NCBI RefSeq assembly: GCF_022458985.1
Contig: NC_061771.1
Coordinates: 31,821,764 to 31,885,763, forward strand
Length of the DNA stretch: 64,000 bases
Reading direction: 5' to 3'
Origin: Mugil cephalus
Lineage: Eukaryota; Chordata; Actinopteri; Mugiliformes; Mugilidae
Of the stretch, positions 3,640 to 61,860 are shown piece after piece (the stretch's first letter is position 1; every line of letters starts with the position of its first letter). A program made the translations under genes and the position numbers. Below the pieces are notes generated by a model, which was not told the origin of the DNA, ran no database searches, and saw only the letters and a list, made by a program, of their open reading frames with translations.

Positions 3640-6600
3640 CTACAGGCCACACTGAGACTGCTGCCGGTGTCTCCGGACGCTACACATTTGGCTGAAGGAC
3701 TGTCCGCAGCGTGAGCAGCTGTAGGGTTTCTCCTGTGTGTGGACTGTGCGATGCCTCTTCAGGTGACTCGACGAGATGAAACTCTTCCCGCAGAGCGAAC
3801 ACCGGTAGCGTCTCTCCCCCGTGTGGATGAGGAGGTGCACCCGCAGGTTGTTGGGCTGCGCAAAGCCCTTCCCACAGTGGGGACAGGTGTAGGGTCTCTC
3901 TCCCGTGTGAACTCTCTGGTGCAGCTCCAGGGCGGCGGCGCTCGGGAAGACGCGCCCGCACACGGCGCACACCACGGCTTCTTTAGGGGCGGCGACGCCG
4001 GCCCTGTAAGGCCGCCGCTGGCTGGTCGAGGTGGCGGAAGGAGCCGTGGCGGGGGGAGGAGGAGGTGGAGGAGGAGGAGGAGGAGGTGGTGGCGGCGGAG
4101 GAGGCGCAGCTACAACAGCGGCAGCAGCGGCCGCTATGTCGAAGGAGGCGGCGAAGGCTGCCATTTCGTGAGCGCCACTGGTGAAGAGCATGGTCGGGGG
4201 GCCGTCGAGACTGTCGCCTCCGCCTTGCGAGGGGAAGGAGGCGGAAGAGTGTTCTGTGTTCCCCAAACCGAGCTGCGCTACGGCGTACGCCGCACCAAGA
4301 TGGCTGACGCGCTCCTGCATCCACGCCAGATCCAGGCCCAGGCTGCTGAGGCGGTCGGGGCTGGGCTCGTCCGACGCCAACGGAGCAGACAGCTGAGATG
4401 GGTGGAGCTCGTCCTCACCGTCGTCCGTCTGGATCTCTGGCTTCAGGGCGCCGTCCGTTATCGTCCCTGGAAGGTCCCTGCGAACGGCCTCGGGGACGGG
4501 GACCCCCCCACCGCCGACCGTCAGACTGTTGTCCAGAGGCTTGGCCGTCTTGCGTTTGGCCCGAGGCCTGCAGGTGAGGTCCATGGTTGTGTCGGTGGGG
4601 GAGAAGGAAGGCTGGGTGGAGGACGCAAAGTTGGCGCCACTGGCGTCCAGGACCACATCAGGGGGGGGGCTCTCCTGGCTGGGCTCCAAGGCTGGGGAGG
4701 GACGGAGTTAAAGAGTTATGGGAAACTTTCAAAAGATTCTTTCGAAGGGATTCACTGCAAATCCATCTAGTCACAAGTCTACGTCAGTTCACACCTGGAT
4801 TTTCTTATATTTTCTTTATAAGTTAAAGATAAATTAAAAATAGAAAGAACTCATTTGATCCTTGGTTGAGAAGGTTATTTTTAAAGTTCAGTTCAGGTCT
4901 TTTTCTTTTTACTAAAAAATTATTACACGTTTAGAGAGATTCACATTGCACAGATGTGCAAGATAGATAGATAGAATAGAATGAAGAATAGAATAGGATA
5001 TTAGGGATGTTCCGATATTAGACTGTTTTTGCCGATATCCGTTACCACTAGCTGAAAATATTTGTGTCCAAAATCTTATAAATTATCGATTCGATAGAAC
5101 GATATGTTATCTCATGAAACAAATGGGGCCTTCCCGTATACCTGGGAAACAATCAGTCACAGCAGTAGACTCCTATGTGTAATATAACACAGTTTACTAC
5201 TCCAGCAAGTAGCCATCGTGGAGTTGCCCAAACTGAATAAATAGCGCACATTTAAACACCAAACCGCTCTGACTAACATGTCTGCTGAAAAATATATTTT
5301 TTCCATAGACAGACTGGCCTCATAATTACACATTTACTTTGAAGCCTGCGCCGTATCATGGACTCACCGGAACATTTCAGTTGAAATTGTAAATTCAGAT
5401 GTATTACTTTATTGAAGTTGACTTCCAGTGGACTTATTCGTATTTGTTTACATGTTATAGACTTTCAGGAAGCGATGATGTGGAGATGGCGGAGTGATAT
5501 ATTTAGTGATGAGTCCGCCGTGCTGTAATGCTGATTTGAGCACGTCCAATGTTATTGACCAATCAGATTGCTTGGTCGGAACTACTTGTTGTATGATGTT
5601 TGCGCCCCGTGAACCCCACGAACAGCAGCGGGAGCGCGCAGCAGCACAACCCGGGCATCTGTTTTAATTACCAGTGGTAAAAACCGATAATGACATGAAC
5701 AGATATTAAAAAAAAAAATAGGCTATAATCGGCGGATATTATCGGACAGCCCTATTATTTAGTTTTTCTTTGTCTGAACAAGGACAGACACTTTTTTTTT
5801 TCTACCAAAATGCGAAAATAAACAGAAATGTCGTCAGTAAATTGGAATCAGTGTCAGATGGGTTGAATTTGAAACGAAACAAAAATCAGATGGGGATAAA
5901 GTTTTCAGCTGTCTTGAGTTTGTTTAAGAATGTCAAGTAAAATTAAATAATATTTCACACAAGGACAGAAGCTTCCAATGTAATGACACAGCAACAAAAC
6001 CCTGATTCACTTCTTTAAAGAGCCCAACTCACCAGTGGAGAGGCCACACTCTGCCCGGATGTTCACCTCCACCTTGAGGTCCAGGTTGCAGTCGTTTCTC
6101 TCTTCGTTTTCCTGCTTCACTCGCGTCAACACCCTGACGTCCTCCTGCTGAACCTTTGAAGCGTGATGGAAGGGTTTGTCTTCGGAGGTGGCGGGAAGAG
6201 GCGACACCAGAGGCTGACGGTTGTCAGATCCTGAGAAAAACACAGGACACTGAGCAAAACCGCCATGAAGCTAAATGAACCATTGAGAGTTATTCATATC
6301 ACTCTTCTTCTACATGACTGTTTCATCTTGATCTTGAATTTGGACCATGGAGTGAAATCCTACATGCAACCAATGTTTAAAAACATGTGAACCAGCCCTT
6401 AAAAGTCCTTAAACAGAAGCTGTTTCTGTTTGGAAACGTCCATCATGAACACACAGCTTCATCTTGCCTTGTGTCCTCCAATGTACTCTGAGAATTTAGT
6501 CATTAATCCGGGGAGATGAGAGTTTGATGCTCAATTTGGCAAACTAGTGGCATGGCGTATTGTTGGGTTTAAAGGGGTTAATAAGGCCTTCAGCCTGTGT

Positions 6601-8891: not shown

Positions 8892-10071
8892 CTACTTGGT
8901 GCTGTGCACGGTTTGGTGTCTGATCAGGTTGCTGAGGAAGGAGAAGTTCTTGCCACATTTGGAGCAGTGGAACCTCTTCTCCCCGGTGTGGACGCTCTGG
9001 TGGACTTTCAAGTTGGTGGACGTGGAGAACTGCTTCCCGCAGTGGGCGCAGGGGAACGGCCTCTCGCCCGTGTGGACCATGCGGTGGCGCTTGAGGCTGC
9101 AGAACTGGCCGAAGCTTTTCCCGCACTGCCCGCACTGGTAGGGTTTCTCCCCCGTGTGGACGCGTTCGTGGATGCGCAGCTGGCACTGGTGGGCGTAGCG
9201 GCGTGAGCAGAAGGTGCAGCCGTAAGGGAGGCCGGACTCGGCCGAGCCGGAGTCCTGATTCCGACCATTTGCCGGTTGGTTTTGACTTGACAGGTTTTCC
9301 GTGTGCTGGTTTCGAGGCAACAAATCCTGGGTTTGCTGGTCCCGGGAGTCACCGGGGAGGCCGCTGAAGGTAGAAACACAGCCACCAAAGGCTGAACTAC
9401 CGTCAAACATCACACAGTCGCCTGGATCTTCACCCTGACGATACCGCGAACTAGCGCCCAGGAGGGGAGCCGCTTCATCGGTTCGGTCATTTCCAGGACG
9501 AAAGTTTATTGCAGTGAAGTCGAGGTCGGACGCTTGAGGAGTTTGAGAAGCTGCAGTGAAACCAGAGACCGACTTTGTTGCGTCACGGCTCAGTGATGAG
9601 TTTGCGGCGTCGTATACGGAGCAGGACGGCTGCTCCGTGTCTCCGACCTGCTGCCACTGAGAGGAGCTGTGGTCCTTTGAAGAGAAAACTACAACACAAA
9701 GACAGAAAAACATGGTTATTCTTTTCACAAAGTGTTGAAAGTGGACAAGTTGAACCCAACCAGCCTAATGAAACTATCATAGTCGTGTGTTTATTACATA
9801 TCTGGTGTAACTCAGAGTTCTGTTGGATTCAGGTCGGGACTTTGACTTGTTCCTCAACATTCATCTTGCTGTGTGTTTTTCTAGGTTTTGATATGAAAAA
9901 TCACCACACGGCTACAAAGATGAACACAGGAGGAGATATATTTAATTAATTTTAAACAGATTTAAAAAAAAATCCAGTTAGGGGTTCCTCAGAAAAATAA
10001 AAACAGCTGGTACCTTGCACTTCATCCATCTTTTCCTCCCAGCACTGAGGGCTGCTCGAATTTTCCTCGTC
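8892..10071 (-). CDS. Alternative distal terminal exons of zinc-finger gene 2 (four C2H2 fingers)
   Basis: Two exons: 10071-10014 (58 bases, an acidic linker starting DEENSSSPQ) and 9688-8892 (797 bases, with stop). Borders are TCCAG/GACGAG, GCAAG/GTACC and TTGTAG/TTTTC. The join is phase 1, and the first of these exons opens in phase 0. The last about 112 residues form four CX2C-X12-HX3H fingers with TGEK/R linkers, ending HSTK. No first exon of its own was found between 10.1 and 11.7 kb. However, the phase-0 acceptor fits the phase-0 donor at 13321 of the upstream gene, so an isoform using 15697-15425, 13437-13321 and these exons would give 414 residues. The alternative is an older separate gene that lost its 5' exons. 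Confidence 0.72.
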
Positions 10072-11777: not shown

Positions 11778-14700
11778 TCAGTGCTGGATCTTCTGGTGCC
11801 TCTTGAGGTTGCTGGGGTGGGAGAAGCGTCGGCTGCAGACCGAGCAGCTGAAGGGTCTCTCCCCGGTGTGAACGTTCTGGTGGATGTCCAGCTGGCTCTG
11901 GCACACGAAGCTCTTGCCGCAGAGTCGGCAGGCGTAGGGCTTCTCCCGGGTGTGCCGGGCCATGTGCTTCAGCAGGTCCGACTCCAGGAAGAAGCGCTTG
12001 GTGCAGTTGGTGCAGCCGTAGGGACGCTCCATCGTGGCGGCGTGGTAGAAGGCCTGGTGGAAGCTGCCGGCGTTGGGTTTGCGGTGGGTAGCGCCGGAGG
12101 AGGTGATGCCGGGATCTCCCGGAGGGTCCTCGCAACGGGGAAGATGAGACGCCGCCCGAACCACCCGGAGTCGTGCCGATTCCCGTCCCACACGTCGAAT
12201 CGCAGGTGTTGGCGTTTCTTCCCGTCCGTCTCTTTTGTTTGCCCTATCTACCTCCGACCACTCGCCCCCCTCCTTGTCAGACGCGCCCCCTCCGTCAATG
12301 ACTATCACCTCTGACAGTGAAGGAGACTTGGAGGCGTCTAAAGCAGCGTGATTATATTCGCCGCCGTCTCTTACAGGCACCGCAGCATCCACGCGTGGTG
12401 CGGTTACAGCGTCTGATTTCAGACGCGGCAGCTCTGCACTGTTTGGAGCATCGCTGCTGTTTCCGTCAGCTTCAGCTCTCCTGACGACAACACAGGTGAC
12501 GGCGTCAGATCCACTGACCTCCGTTTTGCCGCTGCGCGTGGCCGACAGGCCGCCGCCGCCGCCGCCGTCCTCCGAGGTGGCAGGAAGCAACGTGGCGGCG
12601 TCTGCTCCTCCTCCTCCGCCTCCAACGAGCAAGTCGACCGGCGCCTGGAGGTCTCTGGGTCCGGACTCCACCGCTCCCTCCACCTTCACGATCAACAGAC
12701 CCGAATCCTCCTCGACCTCCGCTGACTGCGAGGACAAAACAAGGGTTTACCACAAAACTCACAACAATAGTTGGGTTATTTTTACCGGTATCAGTCTTCA
12801 GTCAAGCCCGATCTCTTGCATTTGTTTGTTTTATTTGTCTTCTGATTTAGTGGTTGTTGGCGTCAAAGCTGCCAAAACTCCAACAAAGGCTTTTTGTATC
12901 TTGTTTAGGCCGATAAAGTTCTGCTCTTCCTCAGGCTACGTTTAGGTTGCTCAGCCAAACACAGCTGCTTGGGCTTAGCCTGACCACTCAGACTGCAGCC
13001 GAGACGTTTGCTGGTCTAACGAATGATTGTTTTAATGATTGTTTTATTGAGCTAGGAGCTGTAAACTGTAATCCACCAATGCCGGTTTGTGCACATTCAA
13101 TAAGCACCTAGGGACCTTTTGAAAGCACTAGTTTCTTGTAGGACCAGTCAGCTTGAAAGCAAAAAACACAAATAATTTTTGTAAATCAATTCAGGCGTGA
13201 AGGGGTTAGGCTGGTTTAGGCTAACGTGATACTGTTAAGACTAATTCCATTAGCGTAATGTTGGGCCTACACCCCAACTTCCCACCAGTGGTTTAGAACT
13301 GCAGATTTAGATGGAGCTACCTCGGTTTTGGTTGTGGTGACGACGTTCTGATCCGAATCCTGGTCCAGGTGGATTGGACTGGTCTTCTGCACAGACTGGT
13401 GAGTCCCGGAACCTCGGTTCAGAAACCGGGTCCTGCCCTGCAGAGAGGAACCTGATGGAACATTGAAAAGGAGAATAATTAACCACAAAGTGTAATAATA
13501 ACACGTAGTGGTAGTTGTGCCGGTGCTCGCTAGTAAAATGAGATCTGTGAGCAGCTACAGGCCTGATGATGTTGATGAATCCACTCAACAACCAAAGACA
13601 CTGCTCTCTGTCCACAAAGAACATCTGGGACAATGTTTAGTGGACAAATGTGGACAGAAACATGGGGGCGCTAATGTCCTGGTTTGGGCCTGTTCTGCTG
13701 CATCTGCTCATCATTGATGGACCAATGAACTGTGAATTCTACCAGTGAACTCTAAAAGAAAATGTCAGGACATGAGTCCATGAGCTGAATGTGAAGAGAA
13801 ACTGGGTCATGGAGGAAAACAAGGAGCCCAAGAACACCAGTGGTTCTCCAGAAGAACCAGATGAATGATGGATCAGTTACAAGGAGCTCACGACACACAC
13901 TGGAGACAAGGACTTATTAATGTTCTTCAATAAATATGTGTTTGACTGGGTTCCATCGTCAACTTTCAGGACTTGTGTAAAAATCTGTTCATATTTTCAG
14001 TCATTTTCATGTAAAAATTTAGGAAATTTCTGCCGGGTGCATGAAACATTTTTATTTGTGGGGTCAATTTGAATGCAGCAATTTAAACCTCGTAAAAATG
14101 AATGAATGAATGAATGAATGAATGTCTTTGCACAAGTACAACAGAATTGTAAGGTGCTCTCCTTCTTAAATGCCATGTTTAAAAAATTAAGATAAAAATA
14201 CACAAAGAAAAATTAAATAAATAAATAAAAAACACACTATTTTGCACAGCACAACATTAAAGAAGCAGCCAGTGTAAAAACAGTCCAAAAAAACCCAACG
14301 CCAATCACAAAACATTGAGTGCAATTACGGCTCACATGTAGAAACTATGTTTTATTCTGTTTGTTTTGGCCTTTAATGTCCTGAGATTTCTGCCACAGGT
14401 AACTATTGAAAAAATGATCCCAAGTTTATGTGTCAGGTACTTTATGTTTGTTTGTTGAATACCTCAATAGCTCTTTAAATGATGAAACAAAACAAAACAA
14501 AACACATATCCATCCAGAAAACCTGTGACACGACTATAGAGAAATATGTAGATCACCATAAAACCTCACTGACTGACATTAAATTAAAAAGAGATGTGTT
14601 TACGTGGCTTTACAACATTTCTAAGTTCATAGTCTTGTTATCTATAACATTTGGTTTGAAAAACTAAAATATATTATTTCCACGTCAATGTTACAAATAA

Positions 14701-45969: not shown

Positions 45970-48900
45970 TCAGCAGGAGTCTGTTTTCTTCATGCAGATA
46001 AATGGATATGTAGCAGTGCATACAGCATTGGTCCATCCCCCTGCAAGAGAACACACTGGTTCATTAAATCTGACAAATGAAACGATAGAAAATAAAAAAG
46101 ATGGACTAAAAACCTCTGTGTTTTTGAATATATTCTCTGTATTAACATATCTATGTACAAAATATCATGAATCTTAAGTGCGGACTAAAGACAATGAATG
46201 GCTTGAATGGAAACACGAAAACATCTAAAGATTCTACTAATATGGAATAAATTAATGCATGTTTTAAGATGGCATTTTAATCTTTAAAATAATTTTTAAT
46301 CAAATCAAATGAAAGACGCAATTAGAGGGAGTTTCAGTACAGTAAATATTTATTTTAAAATACAATCATAAAATAAATCATTTCTCTTTAACTGGAATCA
46401 AATTACAAATAAAATTATTAAAAAGAAAAGTGATCTATGTAATCTACAGGAATGTTATTTCTTATTTTTTTTCTTGCTACAATTATTCTTAGAACAGTTT
46501 TTATTGATGTATTTTTAAATAATATACATTATTAGAGGATGTAGGAAGTTAAATCCCTCTCTCAGAGCTGCAGTAGCTTTTATATAGTGCTAAATTATCT
46601 ATTGTGTCCATTGCAAATTGAAACTATTCATTTGTTGTTTTTTTTGTTTGTTTTTCTTTTTTTTGTTCAAGCTGATTCTCCTGCAAGCATCCATTTCAGT
46701 AGTCACCTCAAAGAGCTGAATGAGAGATAGAAATATTTTGTCTCACCTGTGGTTCTCAGGTAGATACACGGGTAAGAAGTGGCTGAGTTTTGTGAATACC
46801 AGTTGGAGTAGCTGAAGGTACTCTGGTCCAACCATCTCCAGCCCTGGACATCAAGTATAAAAAGAAGATGTTAATTAGAAATGTGTTGTTCTTCTATGCT
46901 CATAATATTAACTAATTAAATGAAGAAATATCATAATGCAGTGATATATTGAAGAAAATGTGGCAATATTAAATATCTGTGAGTGAACATTATATGATTA
47001 GAAGATAATTTCAAGTTAAATCAGTTCAGAACCTTCTCTTTGAACAACAAAGGCACTGATCTCTGACCGAAAACAACATTTGGGACAATGTTTAGCGGAT
47101 AGATGAGACCAGAGTAGAATAGTTTGGTTTAAATGTTTGGGCATCGTCATGTTTGGAGATGAACCAACACTGCATTCCAGCATCAGAACCTCATCCCTCC
47201 ATGAAACATGGGGGCGCTAATGTCCTGGTTTGGGCCTGTTCTGCTGCATCTGCTCATCATTGATGGACCAATGAACTGTGAATTCTACCAGTGAACTCTA
47301 AAAGAAAATGTCAGGACATGAGTCCATGAGCTGAATGTGAAGAGAAACTGGGTCATGGAGGAAGACAAGGAGCCAAGAACACCAGTGGTTCTCCAGAAGA
47401 ACCAGATGAATGTTTAGGAACAAGTCAAAGTCCTGACCTTCATCCAATAGAAACATCTCAAAACTGAACTGGTTCTGTTCTGGGATCAGATTCCTCCAAG
47501 CTGCTGTAGACACTGATCAGCTGTTACCACAAAAATTTTGTCTAAAGGAGTTCACAGACTCACACACTGGACACAAGGACTCACTGACTTTAACACCTCA
47601 CAGAAATGAAAAGATTTTCTTCGATAAATACACAAGTATAATATTTCTGTTTCATGTGTTTGATGGGGTTTTCATTGTCTACTTTTGGGACTCATGAGAA
47701 AATCTGTTGACGTTTTGAGTCATTTATATATAGAAATGTAGAAATTCTGTGTGTGGTTTAATAACCTGGAAGTAGAATCCTCCCATCCAAGCAGTAGTAT
47801 ATCCTGATCCTCTGGTGAGATCCTGCAGGAAACTGTAATCGAACACATCATGGGCCGAAGCCAAGGAGGCCCCGGAACTGGCACAGTTGGTCTTGGAGGG
47901 AGACACACAAATGCTGTGTTAATATGACAAAATGTATTACACGATGTAAAAGCTGGAAGTGTTTCTCTGAGTAACAAATATAAATCACCACAGCACTGGT
48001 CCAAGATCTGCTGGAGGCCACAAACTGATAGCAGTCGCCCTTGTATCTGATCCAACCAGAGGGACATGAGAAGAACCGTCCTGGGGAGACGAGACACGAC
48101 CAGAAAGTAGATTCATTTAATGATAATATATCGAATAGAAAAACATAATAATCAGGGTTCCATCTAAGACAACAAACCTTGGACAGGTGAGGCCACCTCC
48201 TTAGCAGAAACCTCCACAGATTCTTTAACTAAAAGGGGAAAAAAAAAAGATATGTCACATTTTAATCACACTCTTCACACTAATGTGGAGGATATAACAA
48301 GTCAAAATATGTTTTTACCTTCAGGAGTGAAACCTGCAGCTTCACTTTCTACCACTGAGACACAAACAGAGAAAAACAAACAGTTCAAACTGTGATTGTA
48401 ATTTAATCGTGTCAGTGAAAATTGAGGACAACAGTATAACCTTGATATTTTGTTGAAAAATCACACAAATATTTATACATTACACTACTATGGATTAAAT
48501 GAATGTATATTATAAGATGACATTTTAATTATAGTCTAAATCAATGTGAATATGTTTAATGTAATCTTTTGGAAATTAACAATGGGAAATCCATCAGAAC
48601 AACCGATTTGAAAATGGCTTCTGACCAAAGTGTGAAAATATGTTTTTACCTTCAGGAACAAAAACTTCAGCTTCATTTTCTACCACTGAGACACAGACAG
48701 AGAGAAAAACAAACAGTTCGGACTGTGATTGTAATTTAATTGTGTCAGTGAAAATTGAGGACAACAAAGACAATATTTACCAAGTAAACCTCTGCAACAT
48801 TAGGTATTCACACAAATATCTATAAATTCCAGTAATATCGAATAAATGAATGATTATCATAAGATGACATTTTAAGTATTGTTTGATTCAATAAAGTAAA

Positions 48901-51900
48901 TATTTTAATGAAACCTTTTCAAAATTAACAATGGAAAATCCTTCAGAACAGCCATTTTGGAAATGGCCTCCGACAAAAGCATGAAAATATGTTTTTACCT
49001 TCAGGAACAAAAACTTCAGCTTCATTTTCTACCACTGAGACACAGACAGAGAGAAAAACAAACAGTTCAGACTGTGATTGTAATTTAATTGTGTCAGTGA
49101 AAATTGAGGACAACAAAGACAATATTTACCAAGTAAACCTCTGAAACATTAGGTATTTACACGAATATCTATAAATTCCAATAATATTGAATAAATGAAT
49201 GATTATCATAAGATGACATTTTAAGTATAGTTTGATTCAATAAAGTGAATATTTTTAATGTAACCTTTTCAAAATTAACAATGGAAAATCCTTCAGAACA
49301 GCCATTTTGGAAATGGCCTCCGACAAAAGCATGAAAATATGTTTTTACCTTCAGGAACAAAAACTTCAGCTTCATTTTCTACCACTGAGACACAGACAGA
49401 GAGAAAAACAAACAGTTCAGACTGTGATTGTAATTTATTTATGTCAGTGAAAATTGATGACAACAAAGACAATGTTTACCAAGTAAACCTCTGCAACATT
49501 AGGTATTTACACAAATATCTATAAATTCCAATAATATTGAATAAATGAATGATTATCATAAGATGACATTTTAAGTATAGTTTGATTCAATAAAGTGAAT
49601 ATTTTTAATGTAACCTTTTCAAAATTAACAATGGAAAATCCTTCAGAACAGCCATTTTGGAAATGGCCTCTGACAAAAGCATGAAAATATGTTTTTACCT
49701 TCAGGAACAAAAACTTCAGCTTCATTTTCTACCACTGAGACACAGACAGAGAGAAAAACAAACAGTTCAGACTGTGATTGTAATTTATTTATGTCAGTGA
49801 AAATGGATGACAACAAAGACAATGTTTACCAAGTAAACCTCTGCAACATTAAGTATTTACACAAATATCTATAAATTCCAATAATATTGAATAAATGAAT
49901 GATTATCATAAGATGACATTTTAAGTATTGTTTGATTCAATAAAGTGAATATTTTTAATGTAACCTTTTCAAAATTAACAATGGAAAATCCTTCAGAACA
50001 GCCATTTTGGAAATGGCCTCCGACAAAAGCATGAAAATATGTTTTTACCTTCAGGAACAAAAACTTCAGCTTCATTTTCTACCACTGAGACACAGACAGA
50101 GAGAAAAACAAACAGTTCAGACTGTGATTGTAATTTGTGTCAGTGAAAATTGAGGACAACAAAGACAATATTTATCAAGTAAACCTCTGCAACATTAGGT
50201 ATACACACAAATATCTATAAATTCCACTAATATGGATTAAAGGAATGTATGTTATAAAATTACATTTTAATTATAGTTTGATTCAACTTATTAAATATTT
50301 GTTAATGTAACCTTTTCAGAATTGACAATGGAAAATTCATCAGGACAGCCATTTTGGAAATGGCTTCCAACAAAAGCGGGAAACTGAATACAAAGCACAA
50401 GTGGGCAGATGGTGTCAGATTGTACACAACAAGCAAACAAAGAAAAAAAAGTAGTCTGTTGTGCACAGTTGTTTCGCATGTGAACTCAACTTACGCTGGT
50501 TGTCCTCATGCAGCTCCTGTGGTGCAACTTCAGCAGCTCCAACTAAGAGATTAGAATTATTATCATTATTACACTTTTAATTCATTCAAAGAGAAAGTAC
50601 GTGTCTGTGTGTGTCTTTGGTAAGAAAAAGTGGACAGGACAAGTCTCAATTTCTTCATATGTCAGAATATTTTGTCAAACTCTACAATTGTTGATAAGAA
50701 ATGCTACTGATATTGTTTTTACTACCTTCTGTGGTCCTTTTAAGACCATCCACTATCCGAGTCATGGCATGAATAGTGCACACCGAATACACAGCAATCA
50801 ATATACAAAGTCACCTCACATAATATACAACAGCCAAACAGCCAAACAGCCATTTCAGCTCCACACATTTCCAGTCTAATTAAACCAATATGTAGACTAC
50901 ATTAACAATTCAATTTCGATTAAAATCAAATCAGACTCAACTAGTGCCAGAAACTTGAAAATCCGTTTGTTTAATGTGAATATGTCGAATAGAAAAACAT
51001 AATAGTCAAGGTTTCATCTAAGACAACAAACCTTGGGCTGGTGAGGCCTCCTCCCCAGCAGAAACCTCCACAGATTCTTTAACTAAAAGGGGAAAAAAGA
51101 CATGTTACATTATAATCCCACTCTTCACACTAATATGGAAGAAATAACGAGCCAAAATATGTTTTTACCTTCAGGAACAAAAACTTCAGCTTCATTTTCT
51201 ACCACTGAGACACAGACAGAGAGAAAAACAAACAGTTCAGACTGTGATTGTAATTTGTGTCAGTGAAAATTGAGGACAACAAAGACAATATTTATCAAGT
51301 AAACCTCTGCAACATTAGGTATACACACAAATATCTATAAATTCCACTAATATGGATTAAAGGAATGTATGTTATAAAATTACATTTTAATTATAGTTTG
51401 ATTCAACTTATTAAATATTTGTTAATGTAACCTTTTCAGAATTGACAATGGAAAATTCATCAGGACAGCCATTTTGGAAATGGCTTCCAACAAAAGCGGG
51501 AAACTGAATACAAAGCACAAGTGGGCAGATGGTGTCAGATTGTACACAACAAGCAAACAAAGAAAAAAAAGTAGTCTGTTGTGCACAGTTGTTTCGCATG
51601 TGAACTCAACTTACGCTGGTTGTCCTCATGCAGCTCCTGTGGTGCAACTTCAGCAGCTCCAACTAAGAGATTAGAATTATTATCATTATTACACTTTTAA
51701 TTCATTCAAAGAGAAAGTACGTGTCTGTGTGTGTCTTTGGTAAGAAAAAGTGGACAGGACAAGTCTCAATTTCTTCATATGTCAGAATATTTTGTCAAAC
51801 TCTACAATTGTTGATAAGAAATGCTACTGATATTGTTTTTACTACCTTCTGTGGTCCTTTTAAGACCATCCACTATCCGAGTCATGGCATGAATAGTGCA

Positions 51901-54688
51901 CACCGAATACACAGCAATCAATATACAAAGTCACCTCACATAATATACAACAGCCAAACAGCCAAACAGCCATTTCAGCTCCACACATTTCCAGTCTAAT
52001 TAAACCAATATGTAGACTACATTAACAATTCAATTTCGATTAAAATCAAATCAGACTCAACTAGTGCCAGAAACTTGAAAATCCGTTTGTTTAATGTGAA
52101 TATGTCGAATAGAAAAACATAATAGTCAAGGTTTCATCTAAGACAACAAACCTTGGGCTGGTGAGGCCTCCTCCCCAGCAGAAACCTCCACAGATTCTTT
52201 AACTAAAAGGGGAAAAAAGACATGTTACATTATAATCCCACTCTTCACACTAATATGGAAGAAATAACGAGCCAAAATATGTTTTTACCTTCAGGAACAA
52301 AAACTTCAGCTTCATTTTCTACCACTGAGACACAGACAGAGAGAAAAACAAACAGTTCAGACTGTGATTGTAATTTATTTATGTCAGTGAAAATTGATGA
52401 CAACAAAGACAATGTTTACCAAGTAAACCTCTGCAACATTAAGTATTTACACAAATATCTATAAATTCCAATAATATTGAATAAATGAATGATTATCATA
52501 AGATGACATTTTAAGTATTGTTTGATTCAATAAAGTGAATATTTTTAATGTAACCTTTTCAAAATTAACAATGGAAAATTCATCAGAACAGCCATTTTGG
52601 AAATGACTTCCGACAAAAGCCTGAAAATATGTTTTTACCTTCAGGAACAAAAACTTCAGCTTCATTTTCTACCACTGAGACACAGACAGAGAGAAAAACA
52701 AACAGTTCAGACTGTGATTGTAATTTGTGTCAGTGAAAATTGAGGACAACAAAGACAATATTTATCAAGTAAACCTCTGCAACATTAGGTATTCACACAA
52801 ATATCTATAAATTCCACTAATATGGATTAAAGGAATGTATGTTATAAAATGACATTTTAATTATAGTTTGATTCAACTTATTAAATATTTGTTAATGTAA
52901 CCTTTTCAGAATTGACAATGGAAAATTCATCAGGACAGCCATTTTGGAAATGGCTTCCAACAAAAGCGGGAAACTGAATACAAAGCACAAGTGGGCAGAT
53001 GGTGTCAGATTGTACACAACAAGCAAACAAAGAAAAAAAAGTAGTCTGTTGTGCACAGTTGTTTCGCATGTGAACTCAACTTACGCTGGTTGTCCTCATG
53101 CAGCTCCTGTGGTGCAACTTCAGCAGCTCCAACTAAGAGATTAGAATTATTATCATTATTACACTTTTAATTAATTCAAAGAGAAAGTACGTGTCTGTGT
53201 GTGTCTTTGGTAAGAAAAGGTGGACAGGACAAGTCTCAATTTCTTCATATGTCAGAATATTTTGTCAAACTCTACAATTGTTGATAAGAAATGCTACTGA
53301 TATTGTTTTTACTACCTTCTGTGGTCCTTTTAAGACCATCCACTATCCGAGTCATGGCATGAATAGTGCACACCGAATACACAGCAATCAATATACAAAG
53401 TCACCTCACATAATATACAACAGCCAAACAGCCAAACAGCCATTTCAGCTCCACACATTTCCAGTCTAATTAAACCAATATGTAGACTACATTAACAATT
53501 CAATTTCGATTAAAATCAAATCAGACTCAACTAGTGCCAGAAACTTGAAAATCCGTTTGTTTAATGTGAATATGTCGAATAGAAAAACATAATAGTCAAG
53601 GTTTCATCTAAGACAACAAACCTTGGGCTGGTGAGGCCTCCTCCCCAGCAGAAACCTCCACAGATTCTTTAACTAAAAGGACAAAAAAAAAAAAGACATG
53701 TCACATTATAATCCCACTCTTCACACTAATATGGAAGAAATAACAAGCCAAAATATGTTTTTACCTTCAGGAACAAAAACTTCAGCTTCATTTTCTACCA
53801 CTGAGACACAGACAGAGAGAAAAACAAACAGTTCAGACTGTGATTGTAATTTAATTATGTCAGTGAAAATTGAGGACAACAAAGACAATGTTTACCAAGT
53901 AAACCTCTGCAACATTAGGTATTTACACAAATATCTATAAATTCCACTAATATGGATTAAAGGAATGATTATCATAAGATGACATTTTAAGTATAGTTTG
54001 ATTCAATAAAGTAAATATTTTTACTTTAACTTTTTCAAAATTAACAATGCAAAATCCTTCAGAACAGCCATTTTGGAAATGGCCTCCGACAAAAGCGGGA
54101 AACTGAATACAAAGCACAAGTGGGCAGATGGTGTCAGATTGTACACAACAAACAAACAAAGAAACAACAACAAAAAAATACAATCTATTGTGCACAGTTG
54201 TTTCACATGTGAACTCAACTTACGCTGGTTGTCCTTCTGCAGCTCCTGTGGTGCAACTTCAGCAGCTCCAACTAAGAGATTAGTATTATTATTATTACAT
54301 TTTTAATTCATTCAAAGAGAAAGTACGTGCCTGTGTGTGTCTTTGGTAAGAAAAGGTGGACAGGGCAAGACTCAATTTCTTCATATGTCTGAATATTTTT
54401 GTCAAATTCTACAACTATTGATAAGAAATGCTACTGATATTGTTTTAACCACCTTCTGTGGTCCATCCACCATCCGAGTCATGGCATGAATACTGCACAC
54501 CCAATCGTTACAGTCACACATTTGGGAAATATTCCTGAATTATTTTGGGTTTGTCTCTTTAGCGAGTCCAGCTTCACCTCTTAAGATGTTAGCAAACTGT
54601 ACAAGTGAAGAGAAAAGCTCTGACCTGCTGCAGCCGTGGCCACGAGTACACCACTGAGCAAAACAGACAGAATCAGGAGAGCCTTCAT
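45970..54688 (-). CDS. Expanded secreted C-type-lectin-like protein, lectin gene C
   Basis: Signal exon 54688-54625. The stalk is then built from three recurring exon types: 48-bp at 54271-54224, 53132-53085, 51662-51615, 50542-50495; 36-bp at 53800-53765, 52674-52639, 52324-52289, 51204-51169, 50084-50049, 49734-49699, 49384-49349, 49034-48999, 48685-48650, 48354-48319; 51-bp at 53672-53622, 52202-52152, 51082-51032, 48228-48178. The lectin domain follows at 48080-47989, 47891-47766, 46843-46747 and 46040-45970. All stalk exons are phase 1-1 with intact borders, so the 22 coding exons join in frame: 1206 bases, about 401 residues, with a 252-residue acidic cysteine-free stalk against 45 in genes A and B. 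Modules read GAAEVAPQELHEDNQ, VENEAEVFVPE and KESVEVSAGEEASPAQ. The lectin domain keeps six cysteines and a terminal Cys. How many stalk exons are actually spliced is unknown. TATA box at 55207-55214, first exon end at 55136, polyadenylation signal at 45719-45714. Confidence 0.8.
46990..47740 (-). mobile_element. Degenerate Tc1-like transposon in lectin gene C
   Basis: The third copy of the intronic element, between the 126-bp and 97-bp exons as in genes A and B. Transposase not intact. Confidence 0.8.
48640..50060 (-). repeat. 350-bp tandem array carrying the 36-bp stalk exon
   Basis: The 36-bp exon and its flanking intron recur with near-constant spacing: exon ends at 48650, 48999, 49349, 49699 and 50049 (349, 350, 350, 350). 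Neighbouring units differ by only a few bases, so the expansion is recent or homogenised by gene conversion. A further unit spans 52289-52639. Confidence 0.93.
50049..53765 (-). repeat. 1120-bp and 1470-bp tandem cassette array (48-, 36- and 51-bp exons)
   Basis: The block 50049-51168 is repeated at 51169-52288 with no difference noticed by eye. A third copy from 52639 (1470 bases on, because it includes one extra 350-bp unit) differs at only a few positions. Each unit carries one 48-bp, one or two 36-bp and one 51-bp exon. Frames such as those at 50601, 51721 and 53191 are intronic duplicates, not genes. Confidence 0.93.
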
Positions 54689-55206
54689 GATGAAGGTGAT
54701 GACGATGGTAGGGGTGGAGAATAGTGATGATGCTTGATGTCTGGTGGGAAACAGAATGACACAGAGCACAATCTATTAGCGCGTAATTTTTTAGCGTCAC
54801 GAACAATAGTAATCTATCCAGTTCTCCAGCAGCCTAGATCTATAGCAGCATAATAAGGGATGGTTGAGCTTCACCTGAGCCAGAACCAAATATAAGACTT
54901 GTCAAATAGGTTAAAAATGGAGATGGTGTCTGTCTCCTGAACATAATCTGGCAGCTGTTTTTTTTAGGAAAGTATCTTGGTAGCTGAAATCTCTACCTCC
55001 TGATCTATTTTAGAAACTCTAGGAAGCACAAGTAAGCCTGAACTTTGAGAGCAAAACTATCTATATGGTAAGAGAATATGGAACTAGGCCTTTCTGAATT
55101 CTAAGAATTAGAAAGAACAATAGCAGGCGTCTTACCTGGCAGTCAAGGTAGAGATGTTCAGGCGTCGACTGACTGATGAAGTGTCAATGAGGAGGCTGCT
55201 CCGTCC

Positions 55207-58330: not shown

Positions 58331-59061
58331 GTGTTATATTTATATATGCATATACCATATGTGCCACATGTACCATATATGCATACACCTTTGCCAAATA
58401 TGATAGCCACTATGTTATATATATATATAAAAAAATGATAGATTGAAAAAGACCTGTCAGGTCATGAGGGTTAAGAGCAATTTCATTATGAGCTAATAAG
58501 TTCTAAGTCATTTCTATATTAACTCCAGTAATCTCAGTAAGATGCTATTGCAAAAGAGCTTTTATTGACACACACATAAGTCAACCTTTTCATTTCTGGT
58601 GAATGGTCATGAAAACTTAATTATCATGGCCGATGATGCATGTGAAGACACATTTTAATGAATTAAGACCAGGTCTGAAGAGGGTATTTAAATATGAACA
58701 AGTGAGATCAGATCAAAGCAGCCAGAGGAGGAAAAACTAAGAACTAAGCTGTTAATTATAAACGGGGGGAAGATCAATCGTATCATAAAACATAAGCATT
58801 CCAGTCATTTCTTTCAGAAAAAAACTTTATTTATCCCTGAGGGGCAATTAGGAGGGCAAAGAGTGGTACATAAAATTAAAGAGCAAGAGAAGAAATATAC
58901 AAAAGTGTTGGATGACAAAATGTATTTTTAAAACCTATCAGTAAAATCCATATCAACTATTTCATTATTGGCCTCATCAAGCATTTATAGCTTCTCTTTG
59001 AAAAGTAAAACACCGCACACAAAGCCTTTGATGCCTAAGGGAATTATTTACTTATCTGATG

Positions 59062-59633
59062 TATTTAAAGGACGGAGCAGCCTCCTCATTGACACTTCAT
59101 CAAACAACTGAAGCCTGAACATCTCTATCTTGACTCCCAGATAAGACGCCTGCTATTGTTTTTTCTCCTTCTTGGAATTTATAAAGGCCTAGCTCCATCT
59201 TCTCTTACCATACCACCCTAATAGATAGTTTTGCTCCCAAAGTTCAGGTTTATTGGTTATGGTTCCTAGAGTTTCTAAAATAGATCAGGAGGTAGAGATT
59301 TCAGCCACCAGGACCCTCTCCAGAAAAAACAGCTCCCAGATTATGTTCAGGAGGCAGACACCATCTCTACTTTTTCTACCTTTTTTGACAAGTCTTATCG
59401 TTGGCTCTGGCTGAGGTGGAGCTCAACCATCCCTTATTTATGCTGCTATAGGTCAAGGCTGCTGGAAGACAAGCATCACCACTGTTCTCCATCCTCCTCC
59501 TCATCATCTTCATCATGAAGGTTCTACTGATTCTGTATGTTTTGCTCAGTGGTGTTGTCGTGGCCACGGCTGCAGCAGATCAGAGTATTTCTCTTCACTC
59601 GTACAGTTTGCTGACATCTTAAGAGGTGAAGCT
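59062..59633 (+). pseudogene. Lectin gene remnant D (promoter, first exon and signal-peptide exon only)
   Basis: The promoter block with TATTTAAA (59062-59069) and noncoding first exon match genes A-C. The signal exon from 59515 encodes MKVLLILYVLLSGVVVATAAA. Both splice donors have lost their GT: the first exon ends CCCAG/ATAAGA and the signal exon GCAGCAG/ATCAG. The intron end before the signal exon is also shortened, removing the usual acceptor. Intron-like sequence continues to about 60540, but no stalk or lectin exon follows. It is most similar to gene C in the signal peptide (AAA ending, LLSGV), fitting an inverted duplicate of C. A nonfunctional copy of a host gene. Confidence 0.85.
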
Positions 59634-59639
59634 GGCCTC

Positions 59640-61860
59640 ACTAAAGAGTCAAATCCAAAATAATTTAGGAATAGCTCCAAAACTATCAGGTCCATATGTA
59701 TGACCCTGGTCTCTATGTATATGCAGACTTCAGACAATGTATCCCAAATGTGTGGCTGGAACTGATTAATTATTGATAAACTAATGTAGATTCAGGACTA
59801 GATGTCCTGTAGATATGTAGATAGACAGTAGAAAACATCCTGATAGTAATGATATTTCGTAAACAGAGATACCACAGACTACAACTTGACAAAGAGTTTC
59901 TACAAATACCAAAGCTCGCATATTCTACAAAAGTTCTAGTAAAAATAGAACCAGGCCCACTCTCCATTTGGACATTTGAATAAATCCAAATAACCCAAAG
60001 TGGGTTTTTACCTCTTGAAAGAGAATCTGGCTACAAACTGATTCCACTACAGGAGGCAACATACTCACAGTCAACCTTTGGTTATTTTGTTTAGCTTGGA
60101 TATCATAACATTCTACATTTGTACACATTATCGAATCCATAAAAATATTGATATTTCCTCCACATGGTTGTTGTTCACATATGTAATTCCAGAGGGAAAC
60201 GAGTCATCAAAGAATGACAGATATCAGAATAAAGTGAACTTGCAGTAAAAGGTGGTGTTTATATTATAATTTTAACTATTTAACTGTAGTACCACCATCA
60301 GCCCATTAGATAGAGGCAAAGAACCACATATGACATTGAGACTCAGGAATTCAGTCAGCAATGGTGTCTTTGCATTAGGGGCATGGCTCCACCAGAGGGC
60401 GCTGCTGTGTAGGGCAGAATTATAAGCTTTCCTGTGTCAAAAATGCTCTTGAGTACAAGTTAATAATAAATAATAATAATAAATAATGAACTTTGTCCCC
60501 AATTAAATGTCCATAGTTTTCATTTGATGAACACAATTATCCTCTGTGGACATGTGTTTGTGTAATGTCAGAGCATTGATAATCATTCCGATTATGTGTG
60601 TTGGTTTAAATGAAAATAAAGTGAACTAAATGCATTCCTTTTGTCTTTATTGTCCAGGCTCTCATTTCATTGCGCCTCATATTTGTTTATAATCTTATAT
60701 CTATTTATAAAAACACCTCATTTGCACTACTTTACCTAAAGCTGACAAATAACACCTATGATATTAACATAGTCATTTATAATATTGTGCATATGGGGTA
60801 AAGATGCCAGACTCAGGACTTAGTTCATTGCACCTTTTTATTACTCATAGTAACTTATATCTGTTAATAGTAGTGTCATATTCTTGTCACTTTACTTAGA
60901 GCTGACAAATAGCACTTATGATATTGCATAGCTGTTTATAACTGTGTGCTGTAGGGAGATGTATACATTATTATAACTTTATTACATATATTTATAGCTA
61001 CAGATATAAAGCACTATAGTAGAAGTCAAAACTCATTATGCATCACTATACACATTTAGCAAAGCACAGTAGTTATGATGCATCATAAAATTAACAAGTG
61101 ACTAGGCAGATATTGACATATTTATAATGCACTTTTCAGATTAAAATTATAATAATTCATAACCAGCTGTCATAATGCATCATGACGTTGGTTATGACGA
61201 CTTGTGAATATGTATAGATGGTAATAATGACCATTATAATGCTTTATAGACACCTTATAAAATATTATGAGTGCATTCATAGGGCATTATAAATACAACC
61301 TTCATAGAAAGTGTTACCAAGTTGACCTTTTCACTTGTGGTGAACAGTCATGAAAACTTATTTATTGCCCCTTGATCCAGTGAATGTTTTTAGGACCTCA
61401 AAGACAAAACATCATAAAGAGCACAGGGAACTTTCACTTCCACTGACACTGATTTAAATCAACCCTTCAAACTTGGCTTTGCTGTTTATTCCTTCTTATC
61501 ATGAAACTCATGAAAACAGAATGACCTCACTGTGTCATGGTGGAGATAAAACATTCCAGTGGTGAACTGGATATAGGCCACGTTCAGACCTTCGCATCCA
61601 TTCTTGGCGATCAGACCCCAAGTTTAAAAATCCAGGGGCCTCATTTATCAACCGTGCATATGCACAGATCTGTGCGTAAAGAGAGCATAAGCATACTCTG
61701 ACAAAGTATAGACTTTATCAATTTGTACTTGTGATTAGAAAAGTATGTAAATTTACGCACAACTCATGCTGTGAGTACGCACAAAATCTAGTGGTAGAAC
61801 AGTGGAACTACACATTGACCCACTAACAGAGTTGCAGAGAGTACAAGTCTGTAGATTCCT
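59640..61860. other. Spacer with lectin intron remnants and interspersed repeats
   Basis: Up to about 60540 the text parallels intron 2 of lectin gene B (35990-36880). From about 60650 to 61318 lies an AT-rich repeat ending CATAGAAAGTGTTACCAA, like the terminal text of common fish non-autonomous DNA elements. The block 61628-61800 (GGGGCCTCATTTATCAACCG, then ACGCACAA) resembles a Harbinger-type MITE. No gene seen. A CTCF-type core CCACCAGAGGGCGC is at 60389-60402. Confidence 0.5.

Follow-up and report, generated by a model that had tools for sequence, protein, structure and literature searches.

The type II antifreeze and antifreeze-protein-like (AFPL) genes of fish encode a single soluble C-type lectin-like domain (CTLD) and, according to the account given in PMC514892, are distinguished by the placement of their introns and by a glycine at position four of the WIGL motif. 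An eosinophil major basic protein (EMBP)-like protein of Fugu with an acidic neck of 30 residues (isoelectric point, pI, 3.62) is described in the same source. Fish mucosal C-type lectins, such as AJL-2 of the eel, are described as binding bacteria or slowing them (PMC6100423). The gene considered here, designated gene C, lies together with two sister genes (A and B) in a 64,000-nt stretch of Mugil cephalus DNA (assembly GCF_022458985.1, contig NC_061771.1, positions 31,821,764-31,885,763; hereafter the window), and appears to encode a CTLD protein whose neck has been lengthened by tandem duplication of small exons.

All coordinates are window positions, the numbering being continued beyond 64000 for loci downstream, and 100 kb on either side of the window was also examined. 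The neck exons, termed X, Y and Z, were located by scanning the window on both strands with mismatches allowed; domain assignments came from Pfam and matches to solved structures from phmmer.

Exon organization of gene C

Gene C is read from the minus strand (54688 to 45970) and comprises 23 coding exons, which join into 1206 bases and a frame of 401 residues without a stop. The first 19 introns are all of phase 1. The neck is encoded by four copies of X (48 bp), ten of Y (36 bp) and four of Z (51 bp), arranged in the order XYZ-XYYZ-XYZ-XYYYYYYZ and followed by four lectin exons (Table 1). Donors are alike within each neck exon type (GTAAGT, GTAAAA, GTTTGT). The Y exons of A, B and C show 0 to 6 mismatches of 36 in the scan, compared with 14 of 36 at the best unrelated place in the window, and nine of the ten copies in gene C are identical over all 36 bases.

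An initial annotation of the window had proposed that the three exons, present once each in A and B, became 4, 10 and 4 copies in gene C, in two nested repeat layers, with every copy retaining its AG and GT borders. The counts were borne out by the mismatch scan, all 22 coding introns of gene C are GT-AG, and the two layers are seen as a 350-bp period (5.5 copies) within start-to-start spacings of X of 1139, 1470 and 1120 bp. The accompanying claim that exons of equal phase were multiplied without change of frame agrees with the phase 1-1 of all 18 neck exons and with the open frame, and the proposed growth of the stalk is supported by the joined exons: the predicted neck amounts to 252 residues in gene C (4x16+10x12+4x17) and to 45 in A and B (16+12+17).

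The interpretation favoured here, with moderate confidence, is that gene C encodes a CTLD protein in which tandem duplication of phase 1-1 exons has lengthened the neck into a tether of 252 residues. All 18 neck exons would be included in the transcript, and the CTLD would be borne on an acidic, mostly unstructured tether, which would give the basic domain greater reach and separation from its neighbours.

Table 1. Coordinates of gene C, its neck exons and the related loci of the cluster.
Feature	Position	Strand	Basis
Gene A, one each of X, Y, Z; 194 aa	28403..31299	-	Scan, joined frame, Pfam
Gene B, one each of X, Y, Z; 194 aa	35872..39666	+	Scan, joined frame, Pfam
Gene C, possible TATA box, TATTTAAA	55207..55214	-	By eye; conserved also in A, B and remnant D
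Gene C, exon 2: end of 5' untranslated region and putative signal-peptide exon (coding 54625-54688)	54625..54740	-	AG acceptor, GT donor by eye
Neck exon X1 (48 bp)	54224..54271	-	Mismatch scan, joined frame
Neck exon Y1 (36 bp)	53765..53800	-	Mismatch scan, joined frame
Neck exon Z after Y1	53622..53672	-	Mismatch scan, joined frame
Neck exon X2	53085..53132	-	Mismatch scan, joined frame
Neck exon Y2	52639..52674	-	Mismatch scan, joined frame
Neck exon Y3	52289..52324	-	Mismatch scan, joined frame
Neck exon Z after Y3	52152..52202	-	Mismatch scan, joined frame
Neck exon X3	51615..51662	-	Mismatch scan, joined frame
Neck exon Y4	51169..51204	-	Mismatch scan, joined frame
Neck exon Z after Y4	51032..51082	-	Mismatch scan, joined frame
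Neck exon X4	50495..50542	-	Mismatch scan, joined frame
Neck exon Y5	50049..50084	-	Mismatch scan, joined frame
Neck exon Y6	49699..49734	-	Mismatch scan, joined frame
Neck exon Y7	49349..49384	-	Mismatch scan, joined frame
Neck exon Y8	48999..49034	-	Mismatch scan, joined frame
Neck exon Y9	48650..48685	-	Mismatch scan, joined frame
Neck exon Y10, divergent copy, 6/36 mismatches	48319..48354	-	Mismatch scan, joined frame
Neck exon Z after Y10	48178..48228	-	Mismatch scan, joined frame
Gene C, four CTLD exons	47989-48080, 47766-47891, 46747-46843, 45970-46040	-	Pfam Lectin_C on joined protein, E 6.5e-14
Array of 350-bp units (Y exon + upstream intron), 5.5 copies	48463..50377	-	Repeat period
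Overlapping stretches 50034-51256 and 51154-52376, 1223 identical bases at period 1120	50034..52376	-	Sequence comparison
Remnant D, a fourth paralogue preserved as promoter, 5' exon and signal-peptide exon	58953..59682	+	Similarity to gene C
Gene E, neck X, Y, Y, Z	69445 to 65242	-	Sequence beyond window
Gene F, neck X, Y, Y, Z; open 206-residue frame, 8/8 introns GT-AG	78195 to 82045	+

Growth of the neck array

The introns that follow the Y exons fall into two kinds. Where Z comes next (Y1, Y3, Y4 and Y10 of gene C, and the single Y of A and of B) the intron reads GTAAAAACATATTTTG, whereas where another Y comes next (Y2 and Y5 to Y9 of gene C, and the first Y of paralogues E and F, which lie downstream of the window) it reads GTAAAAACATATTTTCA, E deviating at a single base. 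Beyond GTAAAAACATATTTTCA these Y-Y junctions continue into sequence resembling the distal X-Y intron. Because the Y-Y junction is common to C, E and F, the simplest reading is that a single Y was duplicated once in an ancestor of the three genes, before they split, and that the resulting junction was then reused. Growth within gene C would have followed, by units of 350 bp (Y with its upstream intron) and by blocks of about 1.1 kb (Z-X-Y), through unequal crossing-over or slippage between misaligned repeats, the crossing-over itself being inferred.

Older and younger layers can be recognized in the array. Between the Y10 unit and the remaining nine units of gene C there are 53 to 56 differences per 316 to 317 bases, and between the first X-Y interval and the three that come after it there are 34 to 36 per 493 bases. 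The Y6 to Y9 units differ among themselves at 3 to 12 positions per 335 to 336 bases, the three Z-X intervals at 0 to 2 of 588 bases, and the Y4 and Y5 units at none of 336. Only 3 of 1120 aligned bases distinguish block U2 (1470 bp) from block U3 (1120 bp), yet the two are also set apart by a gap of one whole 350-bp Y unit; a quick turnover of copy number, and a recent change in the length of the gene C array, are therefore indirectly supported. The array is probably still changing in length.

A tree of 16 Y units groups the last Y units of C, E and F (77%) as well as Y2, Y4 and Y5 (100%), but agrees only in part with the proposed history: the nine C copies join at 66%, and the first Y of E and that of F fall outside them and apart from each other. 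The discordance may be explained by conversion or by weak signal; as an alternative to one founding event, Y may have been duplicated independently in C, E and F.

It is possible, although rather doubtful, that neck length is a fast quantitative trait, with individuals differing in how many 350-bp and 1.1-kb units they carry and splicing of the phase-matched exons adding a ladder of lengths. If true, a single locus would tune the reach of an innate lectin.

Predicted properties of the neck

For composition, the neck of gene C was cut as 253 residues, with one residue of the next exon included. It has a pI of 4.05 and a net charge of -63, with 65 Glu, 56 Val, 18 Pro and 5.5% Ser+Thr, and contains neither Cys nor an adjacent pair of Lys/Arg; no N-x-S/T motif is present anywhere in the predicted C protein. 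The initial annotation had suggested a "mucin-like or spacer arm". Of the two, the spacer is retained: the acidic, Cys-free and Ser/Thr-poor composition speaks for an extended acidic spacer, and the low Ser+Thr content and the lack of N-x-S/T speak against a mucin-like arm, which would be rich in Ser/Thr and heavily O-glycosylated. Judged from its composition, the neck would be unstructured for the most part.

Two further candidates are disfavoured, namely a disulfide-linked stalk, in view of the absence of Cys, and a magainin-like precursor of tandem peptides cleaved at dibasic sites between the repeats, since no such site exists in the neck. The magainin and caerulein precursor genes of Xenopus laevis resemble gene C in their tandem exons of near-zero divergence and, probably, in having a secreted product, as described in PMC3731216, but their exons encode peptides that are released.

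Lectin domain and family placement

A single stretch matching Pfam Lectin_C was found in each predicted protein (A, E 5.8e-15; B, E 1.3e-12; for C see Table 1). In all three genes three introns occupy the positions described for the fish genes, ahead of the first cysteine of the domain, behind WIGL and between the later cysteines, and one further intron lies inside the domain; the WMGG motif of A, B, C, E and F places Gly in the fourth WIGL position. In single CTLD, intron positions and this Gly the genes are like the fish type II antifreeze/AFPL genes as characterized in PMC514892. Moreover, the 126-bp exon 4 of the herring antifreeze gene is matched by an exon of 126 bp here, and the smelt antifreeze gene carries a mini-exon within intron 2, the place occupied by X, Y and Z (both after PMC2440524). 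Among the best 60 of 164 phmmer matches of protein A to solved structures, type II antifreeze protein 6jk4 is the best fish antifreeze match (E 4.2e-16), though it is outscored by several multi-domain receptors and an NKG2-D construct. The predicted protein has a hydrophobic N-terminus by eye. Exon structure and WMGG motif agree with the published family features. The product of gene C is probably a C-type lectin-like protein of the fish antifreeze-like type, with a single domain and a putative secretory route. Neither EPN nor QPD, the usual sugar-binding triplets, was seen in its domain.

Within an intron of gene C, a stretch of 211 bp (47203-47412) is 99% identical to 13657-13867, 33 kb away, and is perhaps a young mobile element.

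Competing explanations

Neutral drift, in which repeats give rise to further repeats and the extra neck length is tolerated although it serves no function, is unlikely but the most probable of the rivals. Neck exons are conserved no better than nearby introns across five paralogues, near-identical and older layers are intermixed in the array, and the tandem exons of the X. laevis peptide genes are portrayed in PMC3731216 as sustaining themselves through unequal crossing-over. Drift is less easily reconciled with the intact frame of every neck exon of gene C, and also of those of E and F, or with the maintained charge of the neck.

Somewhat less probable is a splicing generator, whereby variable inclusion of the 18 neck exons would yield a graded series of neck lengths in place of a single long product. 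The equal phases and the uniform donors within each type would permit it, and young alternative exons are reported to be often divisible by three in length (PMC2592719); the borders of the C exons, however, show no sign of special weakness, because the single exons of A and B carry the same ones.

In eosinophil major basic protein an acidic part presumably neutralises the basic domain before secretion, and the neck of gene C might likewise serve as an acidic pro-piece. Across A, B and C the necks have a pI of 4.05-4.08, an acidic neck before the CTLD being a feature of the EMBP group (XII), while the domains have a pI of 8.19-8.50 and are without Glu; the acidic neck of the Fugu protein (PMC514892) fits as well. 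Charge does not, however, require a neck of such length, because the C domain carries only +3 against -63 in its neck, and -8 and -7 suffice in the necks of A and B. We regard this explanation as improbable.

Finally, creation of the array, or at least of its identical 1120-bp blocks, by the assembler is very unlikely despite the 1223 bases identical at that period, for a pure artefact is hard to reconcile with the private differences borne in order by Y6 to Y9 and the blocks or with the intermediate two-Y state of E and F, and the genome is assembled in 24 contigs, the window being free of N and the 264 kb read containing a single N run, of 72 bases.

Paralogues and the surrounding cluster

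The family extends beyond A, B and C, the paralogues E and F each having a neck of X-Y-Y-Z. Exon X of gene E (68464-68517) measures 54 bp instead of 48, remaining in frame with a gain of two residues. The acceptor that precedes its second lectin exon carries one surplus G (about 67352), so gene E may be damaged, as a young pseudogene, or may use another splice site. Remnant D resembles gene C only from the promoter to just past the signal-peptide exon, with AT in place of GT at its two donors.

When the whole genome (634,849,253 bases) was scanned for the Y exon, at most 3 mismatches being allowed, at least 13 places were found (repeat counts are lower bounds), all within the cluster, nine of them exact and all nine in gene C; the reversed Y, used as control, gave no match in the 634.8 Mb at the same threshold. 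A more distant lectin-like neighbour, gene G (about 86.8 to 89.3 kb, or 86800-90060 at the widest, minus strand), shows by eye a WIGG motif and perhaps a short neck exon that is acidic and rich in Pro. Contig C1 carries another and larger lectin cluster (46.35-49.89 Mb, about 3.5 Mb), to which 21 of the genome's 58 lectin-like matches belong. Long minus-strand frames at 3640-4707, 8892-9764 and 11778-12746 resemble C2H2 zinc-finger proteins by eye.

Comparison with known systems

No fish lectin with multiplied neck exons was found in the part of the open-access literature that was covered. The antifreeze/AFPL genes have no mini-exon or one, in contrast to the three neck mini-exons present here, with their 18 copies in gene C. 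The principle that an equal-phase spacer exon can be duplicated is already known from the human IgG3 hinge, where, by the account in PMC4202688, an exon single in the sister genes is duplicated up to four, its number varying by allotype; that hinge belongs to an unrelated protein, and has a single exon type, far fewer copies and other chemistry. In CLEC4M (L-SIGN), a C-type lectin, the length of the neck is likewise set by a tandem repeat, reported at 4 to 9 copies in people (PMC3261175). It is, however, a membrane protein, in which repeats of 23 residues are amplified as a single exon, whereas here the repeats are separate exons and the predicted protein has a signal-peptide-like start. The Mugil cluster displays the possible steps side by side, with one Y in A and B, two in E and F and ten in C. 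Because these genes coexist and those with more than one Y have the Y-Y junction in common, the cluster offers a compact case for how spacer exons multiply, and for whether the reach of a lectin is selected or merely tolerated.
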